From Pomacea canaliculata (Eukaryota > Mollusca > Gastropoda > Architaenioglossa > Ampullariidae), in contig NC_037598.1 of NCBI RefSeq assembly GCF_003073045.1, forward strand, positions 15,459,537-15,523,536: 64,000 bases of DNA, given 5' to 3'. The position numbers were made by a program, and so were the translations under genes. The notes under the pieces are model-generated. The model saw nothing but the letters and a program-made list of their open reading frames with translations. It did not search any database and was not told the DNA's origin. This document shows, in pieces, positions 59,417 through 64,000 of the stretch. The stretch's first letter is position 1, and every line of letters begins with the position of its first letter.

Positions 59417-59605
59417 CACGTGTGTACACATAACATTTTTGGCTTGCAGGAGAAAGTGCAACATTTGCATCGCTGTACAGCGATCGATTTTTGTTTATTT
59501 TCTTGGTTGTTGATGCTTTGTTGCTCTTGAAATTACAACAGTGGTGGACTAAATAGACCTGAGTGGCATAACTATCAGTTGTGGCAAAATCTCTCGGCAT
59601 CGTGT

Positions 59606-59621
59606 GCACCTGAAAAGGACC
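59606..59621 (-). other. Decayed histone-type stem-loop downstream of the H1-like frame
   Basis: Minus strand reads GGTCCTTTTCAGGTGC. It is identical to the protamine stem-loop at 63751-63766 in 14 of 16 positions. The two differences unpair two of the six stem base pairs. It lies 136 bases past the stop of the H1-like frame. Confidence 0.45.
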
Positions 59622-59757
59622 GTAAGACATTTGTTTTGTTTTTGCTTGGGTTTTCTTTTTTTTTTTTTTTGGAAAGTCTTTTGAGTTTTGCTTACAGTAC
59701 AGTTTACTCACTGAACACGCGTGTTGTTCCGAGCGTTATAGTTTATTCAGATGGGGG

Positions 59758-60369
59758 TTAAAAACGGTGCTTCAGGTGGCGGGATGACCTTTGACGGCTT
59801 CCTCTTCCTCTTTTTCCTTCTTCTCTTTTTTTCTCTTTTTCGCCACCTTTGACACCAACAGCTGCGCACCTTCTTCTGTCTATTGCGACGACGCCGCTTC
59901 GCCTCCACCCCTGCCGCCGTCGTCGTCTGGAGCGTATTCTGTGATAGCTGGATGGTCTGCGTGACCCCGAGCCTTGTCGTCTGCATCGCCGAAGGCCGGA
60001 GCCGCCGGGTGGCTTCAAGAAGATGCGGTGTGCGAAAGCGTGGATCTTGCCGCTGCGCTCCGCACGGATCAGCGTTTGCTTGAGCTCGCTTGACGTCACG
60101 CTGGGATCCCACTCTTTCTGCAGCAATTTTCGGATCGTCGCGAAGGTGGAGCCCTGGTGTTCGCCCAGCATGGCCACAGCCTTGACGACGTTGGCCACCG
60201 TCAGAGGCCTCTGGCGGCAGCTGTCGATGTGACTGTAGTTGATGCCTTCCAGCTGCGGCCTGTATCCTCTCCATCTTGTTCTGCTTCTGGATCTTGGCCA
60301 TACCTGGTTGGTACCTTCCAGCTGCGGCCTATATCTTTTCCATCTTGTTCTGCTTCTGCATCTTGGCAA
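59758..60369 (-). CDS. Linker-histone H1/H5-like (sperm protamine-like) frame, possibly a pseudogene
   Basis: A winged-helix globular domain of the H1/H5 type lies at 60016-60210: RPLTVANVVKAVAMLGEHQG, STFATIRKLLQKEW, then SELKQTLIRAERSGKIH and RIFL. Such domains bind the nucleosome dyad; molluscan sperm often use H1-derived protamine-like proteins. After it comes an Arg-rich stretch (LRRCRRQGSGSRRPSSYHRI, RSRRRRRQGWRRS), then a weaker tail. The overlapping frame (stop at 59747) instead reads a very basic tail (EAKRRRRNRQKKVRS, RKREKKRRRKKRKRK), suggesting a frameshift near 59,910. The frame is open from 60,513 but contains no ATG before the domain; the codon at 60,369 is TTG. The start therefore lies in another exon or frame, or the gene is decaying. 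A 23-residue tandem duplication precedes the domain. Confidence 0.6.
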   Translation of the reverse strand: MPRCRSRTRWKRYRPQLEGTNQVWPRSRSRTRWRGYRPQLEGINYSHIDSCRQRPLTVANVVKAVAMLGEHQGSTFATIRKLLQKEWDPSVTSSELKQTLIRAERSGKIHAFAHRIFLKPPGGSGLRRCRRQGSGSRRPSSYHRIRSRRRRRQGWRRSGVVAIDRRRCAAVGVKGGEKEKKREEGKRGRGSRQRSSRHLKHRF

Positions 60370-63040: not shown

Positions 63041-63719
63041 CCACCCTTTATGGTCGGTCATTCAGGAATGATCTTTACAGAATGTTTACATCCAGATCTA
63101 ATAATAATCATAAAGTTAATTTATAAACCGCGCATAGAAAGTGTTGAGTTTATTAACAAACGTGAGTGGGTCAGTACACTATACTCTTTGTTTCTTTTTT
63201 TCCTCTGCCGATCATGGTATTCAGGCACTTTCATGTCTCCCTTGTGTTGCGTTCATAGCAAGATTACCTAGTATTTCAAATGTTGGTGTCAATCAAGGCA
63301 GTGCACTTTTTTCTGTCATTTTTGCACTTTGTGTCGCACTTATTCTTGTTGTTCCGCAAATGTTTGTTTCTGTGCATATTTCCTCATTGTACGCAGTAAG
63401 AATTGCCACGTTTACCGCCAGAGTGGATAAAAAAAAATATTAAATAAGTCTATAATAGAAAACGACGAACAACGCGATGACTTCAGCCGAGAGCCGTTAG
63501 CAAAGATACATTTTTTTAAAATCTGTATAATGCAAGATTGAGAAGAATGTCGATCACATTACAGATAAAAGCACTGAAAAATACAGCTGACAAAGTCACT
63601 TCACAAACATTGCTAAGCGGAGAATAATTAAAAAAAAATTGGGGGGGGGGAGAAGGGTAAAATAAAGACAATAATATAATAATAAAAATAATTACTATTA
63701 AGTTATTATTGGTAACATA

Positions 63720-63727
63720 TCTCTTCT
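63720..63727 (-). promoter_or_regulatory. Histone downstream element (U7 snRNA-binding-like)
   Basis: Purine-rich AGAAGAGA on the minus strand, starting 24 bases past the stem-loop. This is about where the U7 snRNA-pairing element (consensus rich in AAAGA) lies in replication-dependent histone genes. Confidence 0.5.
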
Positions 63728-63750
63728 GATCAAATTCCTGAAAAGCATAT

Positions 63751-63766
63751 GGTCCTGAAAAGGACC
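63751..63766 (-). terminator. Histone-type 3' stem-loop of the protamine mRNA
   Basis: Minus strand GGTCCTTTTCAGGACC: a perfect 6-bp stem with a TTTC loop, matching the metazoan histone stem-loop consensus (GGYYYTTYTNARRRCC). It lies 70 bases past the protamine stop codon, a normal histone 3' UTR distance. It is expected to bind SLBP and direct cleavage without polyadenylation. Confidence 0.85.
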
Positions 63767-63836
63767 GGGGCAGGTAAAATTTTTGAGTTTTTTTATGTTT
63801 TTAGTCATCTATTTTTGAAGTTTAGATTATGAAAAG

Positions 63837-64000
63837 TTAATATCTTCTACGCCTACGGCGTCTTCGGCTTCGTCGTCGTCGGCTGCCGCAACCGCGGCTG
63901 CGGCAACGGCGGCGTCGGCAACGGCGGCGGCTGCCGCAACGGCGGCTGCGGCAACGGCGGCGTCGGCAACGGCGTCTTCGTCTGCGCCTGGAACGTCGTC
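63837..64000 (-). CDS. Cysteine-containing protamine (sperm nuclear basic protein), 3' portion
   Basis: Minus-strand frame ending TAT TAA; 53 residues are visible and the start lies beyond base 64,000. Composition is 37 Arg, 6 Cys, 6 Ser, 3 Gly and 1 C-terminal Tyr, with no Lys: a true protamine that condenses sperm DNA, able to form disulfides. Residues 11-26 and 27-42 of the visible part are a 16-residue tandem repeat (CRRRRCRSRRCGSRRR, with one Arg to Gly change in the second copy). The C-terminus SRRRRRRRRY resembles cephalopod and gastropod protamines. The other two frames are Ala/Asp- and Pro/Thr-rich and do not look like proteins; one ends in a stop. The mRNA ends in a histone stem-loop. 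The H1-like frame 3.5 kb downstream is on the same strand. Confidence 0.9.
   Translation of the reverse strand, partial: RRSRRRRRRRCRRRRCRSRRCGSRRRCRRRRCRSRGCGSRRRRSRRRRRRRRY

Follow-up and report, generated by a model that had tools for sequence, protein, structure and literature searches.

The gene at the edge of the window

The stretch of DNA analyzed here, referred to as the window, comprises 64 kb (C9:15459537-15523536), and relatives of its genes were sought in the whole genome of 440,159,624 bases on 24 contigs. At the end of the window, an Arg/Cys-rich reading frame is found together with several other elements (Table 1). An earlier note had placed the end of this frame at position 63837, and the ORF reading of the window bore this out for the minus strand, on which the stop codon TAA occupies positions 63839-63837. 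A total of 162 bases with 53 residues is readable. At the window edge the frame is still open and 5000 N start at the very next base of the genome. All three minus-strand frames are open at this edge, and the Arg frame was chosen because the open gene g1_C5 passes from a winged helix into Arg and likewise ends in RRRRRRRRY. Judging from the paralogs, the Arg frame is thus the one that is presumably used in the window gene. The closest relatives of this gene are g1_C5 itself (L031, 3419-3868), which is open and has the same C-terminal end, and L052. The encoded tail is highly basic, as is characteristic of proteins of the protamine-like (PL) type. The region in which the second characteristic, an H1 winged helix, would be sought consists of N in the window gene, and six paralogs were tested instead, four of which reached or exceeded the cut-off. 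We infer that the 5' half of the window gene, encoding an H1-type winged helix, lies within the 5000 N.

Table 1. Positions of the protamine-type gene, its 3' end and a second family member in the window
Feature	Positions	Strand	Remarks
Arg/Cys-rich tail frame, RRSRRRRRRRCRRRRCRSRRCGSRRRCRRRRCRSRGCGSRRRRSRRRRRRRRY*	63837..63998	minus	C-terminal part (subfamily g1) of a predicted winged-helix/protamine gene
48-bp tandem duplication in the tail	63880..63974	minus	2.0 copies, 97%; repeated Cys-containing unit
Histone 3' stem-loop, GGTCCTTTTCAGGACC (GGTCCT-TTTC-AGGACC)	63766-63751	minus	6/6 pairs, loop TTTC
Downstream element, contains CTTTTCAGGAATTTGATCAGAAGAGAT	63719..63750	minus	kept in paralogs beyond the expected cleavage point
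Second family member (copy 2), g2	59747..60369	minus	winged helix in frame -2, basic tail end in frame -1: frameshifted
3' end of the second member	59574..59627	minus	stem-loop GGTCCTTTTCAGGTGC at 59621-59606, broken, 2/6 pairs lost

The stop codon is followed after 70 nt by a perfect histone stem-loop, just as the earlier note had described, and this is the sole exact match to the consensus in 64 kb. The conserved stem-loop with a 6-bp stem and a 4-nt loop that defines the 3' ends of replication-dependent histone genes is therefore present after the stop. When up to one mismatch to the consensus was allowed, the window contained 2 matches versus 0.61 expected, a number that was reached by 14 of 100 shuffles. 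A stem-loop match at a distance of up to 150 nt was obtained in none of 20000 simulated stretches. With a covariance model built from 15 3' ends outside the window (14 from the family and one from a non-basic ORF), the window site scored 60.8 bits (E 1.6e-13). A search of positions 63751-63766 with the Rfam histone stem-loop family had been proposed earlier, and its outcome was mixed: Histone3 (RF00032) did match the site, but the 19.4 bits remained below the cut-off of 34. In this genome the cut-off is a poor guide because the top match, L001 with 35.8 bits, lacks a histone ORF in the 3 kb examined and a canonical H1 reaches only 33.7 bits; just 2 of the 12 genomic matches attain 34. Rfam with gathering scores gave no match in the window. 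With E-values, 401 bases gave 25 matches; the stem-loop was one of them, and many others were fortuitous matches to the CG-rich repeat. A model of ten canonical histone 3' ends from the same genome yielded 21.2 bits for the window (E 1.3e-4), covering the stem-loop plus one base and not the downstream element; three genes of subfamily m and a single non-basic ORF matched this model end to end. Searching a phage collection with the 3' end produced no match.

In the 440 Mb of the genome, the exact 16-mer of the stem-loop occurs 37 times and the reversed control sequence not at all. The tail sequence is repetitive and rich in CG, with 48-bp units in tandem, and a hairpin might have arisen by chance behind such low-complexity sequence. 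The likelihood of this is close to nil, as it is already contradicted by the simulated stretches, by the reversed control and by the E-value obtained with the family model.

A dispersed family with winged helices and arginine tails

Sorting of the 37 occurrences, based on ORFs or flanks alone, assigned 9 to histone genes or their remnants, 16 to a family of genes with Arg tails (including the window gene, arrays being counted singly) and 11 to small non-basic ORFs or broken copies; at one locus (L066) no ORF was recognised. The Arg-tail family was collected with the Linker_histone profile, with three winged-helix proteins and from the loci around matches; all counts are lower bounds. At least 13 genes have an open frame leading from a linker-histone-like winged helix into a poly-Arg tail. 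Five of them belong to subfamily m (two on C9, one each on C10, C5 and C1), three to subfamily p (two on C9, one on C5), one to subfamily g1 (C5) and four to subfamily g2 (three on C5, one on C10). The tail end of m_C1 is frame-shifted relative to its sister genes, yet open, and the start of g2_C5c falls outside the examined stretch. A relative with Lys/Arg-basic character, r_C10 (L063), was also present. Two Lys-rich genes were found on C13, one without a stem-loop within 800 nt; the stem-loop of the other is paired and lies at a distance of 284 nt. Genes of subfamilies g1 and g2 adjoin each other on C5, on C9 (the window) and on C10. A head-to-head m/p pair occurs as an inverted near-copy at L010 and L027 (C9:15.13 and 15.745 Mb), flanking the locus of the window gene.

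In 11 open genes, thus in all but two of the 13, a fully paired stem-loop is located 27-110 nt past the stop. The two exceptions, g2_C5b and g2_C5c, form 5/6 pairs, such that the stem is imperfect in two of the four open g2 genes. Behind two genes, the stem-loop and its downstream element form tandem arrays. The array at L029 (m_C1; C1:31.47 Mb, minus strand) has 3 units with a spacing of 117/116 nt, and that at L058 (g2_C10; C10:13.4696 Mb, plus strand) has 4 units with a spacing of 57/56/56 nt. Between distinct m copies, dN/dS was 0.54-0.77. For three of the four g2 genes (L031, L058, L061), the N-terminal part gave a ratio of 1.49-1.71, and dN exceeded dS in 269-291 of 300 bootstraps, a frequency on account of which we regard the excess as suggestive only. 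Fast adaptive change in the g2 genes is possible.

The second family member in the window is probably decaying; its broken 3' end still scored 38.1 bits with the 15-sequence covariance model. This neighbor raises the question of whether the window gene is itself a dead or dying duplicate, the 3' end of which looks intact since decay is recent, with the live genes residing elsewhere. Besides the frameshift and the broken stem of copy 2, the damage in two of the three g1 relatives (L052 is frameshifted with the tail in another frame, L051 is broken and has no stem-loop) and the unreadable 5' part of the window gene speak for such a scenario. We nevertheless judge it unlikely, because the window stem-loop has the exact form of the family, whereas even the open g1_C5 differs at 2/16 places while still being paired, and because the Arg frame stays open throughout the readable sequence and has the same ending as g1_C5.

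Probable linker-histone descent and the conserved 3' end

The earlier note had proposed that the protamine descends from a linker histone gene and kept its 3' end, and this is supported through the paralogs. For all six winged helices scanned, representing the four Arg-tail subfamilies, Linker_histone was the best Pfam match. With a cut-off of 22.4 bits, m_C10 scored 31.2, m_C5 22.8, and g1_C5 and g2_C5a 22.4 each; m_C9a (21.4) and p_C9a (18.1) stayed below. A profile of the family matched the nine H1 domains of the same genome with a probability of 92 (E 6.1e-7). When the PDB sequences were searched with the winged helix of m_C9a, 4 matches were returned, none of them a histone and the best with an E-value of 0.43. 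In a tree of winged helices with 19 rows, a branch with support 86/89 separated the 12 Arg/Lys-tail rows from the others; the tree was not used for rooting because of its long branches and the lack of an outgroup. Among the nine H1 genes the stem-loop is exact in one and carries one loop change in two. The canonical H1 genes L015 and L017 (C14) carry the loop variant GGTCCTTTTGAGGACC, which follows the stop codon at distances of 47 and 43 nt. Since several subfamilies and these three H1 genes possess the stem-loop, its retention from a histone gene appears to be the simpler reading compared with its being regained. Hence there is good support from sequence that the family arose from a linker histone and retained the histone 3' end, and we infer the same for the window gene.

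The 11 non-basic ORFs or broken copies with the same stem-loop sit on C1, C4 and C9, and the stem-loop is consequently not a mark of protamines alone. At L034, L064, L065 and L067-L071 (C4, C1:30.88 Mb, C9:13.98 and 15.30-15.31 Mb), non-basic ORFs precede this stem-loop together with a similar downstream element. One of the small non-basic ORFs with a stem-loop has an acidic tail and some are broken. Four of the non-basic proteins were scanned; one gave a weak match to Linker_histone (14.3 bits), one a match to the MCM_C winged helix that was below the cut-off (21.7 bits), and two gave no match. The signal also follows ORFs that resemble linker histones weakly or not at all and occurs in tandem arrays, which could mean that the stem-loop spread among unrelated small genes by duplication of 3' ends or by gene conversion and was not inherited from H1. 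We consider such a spread quite improbable, given that the two weakly matching non-basic ORFs may be diverged winged helices and that the downstream element differs by subfamily.

Each subfamily has its own downstream element. In four of the five members of subfamily m (the near-identical m_C9b was dropped), the stem-loop is 100% identical (96/96) and the next 30 nt are 89% identical (160/180). Identity amounts to 60% and 40% in the upstream flanks and to 51% and 41% farther downstream, so that the stem-loop and the following 30 nt make up the best-conserved stretch of the 3' region. The downstream element typical of replication-dependent 3' ends is thus represented by these 30 conserved nucleotides. 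Conservation beyond the expected cut fits a processing signal and would not be predicted for an element of the finished mRNA. At the level of sequence, the pattern in subfamily m is a footprint of histone-type processing. The window gene and g1_C5 share 59/90 positions (66%) between stop and stem-loop, 14/16 (88%) in the stem-loop, 28/30 (93%) in the 30 nt past it and 27/30 (90%) in the next 30-nt block, followed by 66% farther down. The comparison of the window gene with L052 gave 97%, then 70% (23/33) for the 31-60 block and 78% (51/65) for 61-120 nt; here the footprint is less sharp because the 61-120 nt flank is as conserved as the 31-60 block.

The earlier note had called the downstream element U7-like. 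An element is indeed present and conserved past the cut, but no U7 snRNA was found with Rfam: the 7 genomic matches had E-values of 4.75-9.68 with a best score of 21.4 bits, none exceeded the cut-off, and the same search also gave matches in 12 of 14 control genomes. The label therefore rests on position and conservation. The RNA-binding domain of SLBP was found in the genome in two pieces. Covariation of the stem was not detected among the 15 model sequences because the stem hardly varies. When r_C10, the window gene and copy 2 were added to the set, r_C10 (L063) turned out to have both sides of two pairs changed (AGCCCTTTTCAGGGCT); two double-sided pair changes were reached by 6 of 500 shuffles, and kin sequences can attain them without structure.

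Predicted expression and comparison with known sperm proteins

Taken together, we think it likely that the window breaks off in the 3'-terminal portion of a gene that encodes a protamine-like sperm protein derived from a linker histone; the gene would belong to a multigene family and carry a working histone-type processing signal at its 3' end. This reading is based on the family, its domain make-up, the uninterrupted ORFs of the paralogs, the stem-loop, the conserved downstream element and the SLBP domain, and it extends by prediction to the 5' half of the window gene, expression in the male germline, cleavage, the lack of poly(A) and a function in sperm. The gene would consist of a single exon and be transcribed in male germ cells. 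SLBP would bind the stem-loop, the downstream element would be recognized (by U7 snRNP in known animals) and the pre-mRNA would be cut a few nucleotides past the stem-loop, yielding a non-polyadenylated mRNA that would be translated with the help of SLBP. In the protein, the winged helix may guide the molecule to linker DNA, the Arg tail would neutralize the DNA and the cysteines could cross-link the protein.

All 12 family genes that were tested had RFX-like GTTGCYW half-sites within the 300 nt upstream, compared with one of eight histone genes, of which two had only 127 and 225 nt of upstream sequence, and with 29 of 213 background blocks. The corresponding numbers for a full X-box with up to four mismatches were 10/12 for the family genes, 2/16 for histone genes and 25/210 for the blocks. 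The RFX motif presumably has a role in the spermatid program, and the upstream half-sites would be a hint in this direction, albeit a weak one because the motif was picked by eye from the family promoters, the family genes are related, two of them were outside the test and two controls were short.

An AATAAA or ATTAAA motif occurs 55-782 nt after the stop in 12 of the 13 open genes, and polyadenylation is accordingly possible for these as well as for the window gene. The stem-loop may work in the histone manner while spermatids use the downstream poly(A) signals, a course that has been proposed for some histone variants of the germline, in which case 3' ends would be mixed or switched and the stored sperm mRNA would be polyadenylated. 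Mammalian H2B.1 and H2B.W offer a parallel: according to the accessible text of PMC8857922, they are male-germline genes, as is predicted for the snail family, and share with it histone descent and a stem-loop beside poly(A) signals. Their products differ in being histones, as do those of male-germline H1 variants of wasps, for which poly(A) tails and introns are described in the accessible part of PMC10264595. Such mixed ends appear rather unlikely to us, as conservation in subfamily m drops off roughly 30 nt beyond the stem-loop, at the point expected for the end of processing signals, and the poly(A) motifs lie at varying positions, the first being found 682 nt after the stop in the window gene and none within 800 nt in m_C9b. 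Our preferred reading, cleavage at the stem-loop, has a requirement of its own. SLBP is degraded after S phase (PMC11742582, accessible text) and its use in spermatids would therefore need persistence or early synthesis.

Compared with replication-dependent histone genes, the family has the same 16-nt stem-loop as H2A, H2B and one H1 of this genome at a similar distance from the stop, an element within 30 nt downstream and a single ORF. It differs from them in the Arg-tail product and the upstream RFX-like sites. The core-histone clusters lie on C8, where no family copy was found. P-type Arg protamines of vertebrates and cephalopods likewise have an Arg-dominated chain, with cysteines in some. 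To our knowledge, however, classical protamines lack a winged helix and their mRNAs are polyadenylated. The case for deriving protamines from linker histone H1 is built mainly on similarity between the proteins, and the bivalve protein PL-I contains a winged helix. H1-derived protamine-like sperm proteins are known in bivalves, namely PL-I of Spisula and PL-II/PL-IV of Mytilus (PMC5550673, accessible text). Like the snail proteins, for which a place in sperm is predicted, these are basic proteins traced to histone H1. The snail family is set apart from them by a tail of mostly Arg and some Cys, by its occurrence in a gastropod, by four subfamilies on four chromosomes and by its histone 3' ends. 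In the accessible text of the open literature searched, no protamine with a histone 3' end is reported, and a 2006 paper on bivalve PL genes may report such ends. H1-derived protamine-like proteins are thus known already from bivalves, and what is apparently new, within these sources, are protamine-type genes with histone 3' ends.

In a wider sense, this gastropod may pack its sperm DNA with an expanded family of H1-winged-helix/poly-Arg proteins. Their mRNAs would be produced without polyadenylation by the SLBP/U7 pathway in male germ cells that have finished replication. The pathway would thus no longer depend on S phase, the arrays of 3-4 units in single genes would be an elaboration of it, and a second, non-basic group of small proteins would use it as well. 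We offer this as a tentative proposal that falls somewhat short of even probability. Cleavage at the stem-loop, if it occurs, would require either that SLBP is active in male germ cells once replication is over or that the mRNAs are synthesized during the last S phase and then kept in store; sperm genes of this kind would be missed by poly(A)-selected testis RNA-seq. As single genes combine an H1-like domain, an Arg tail and a histone 3' signal, descent is readable from three parts together. The genes hint at how Arg-rich proteins for the packing of sperm DNA arose and at how they may be made.
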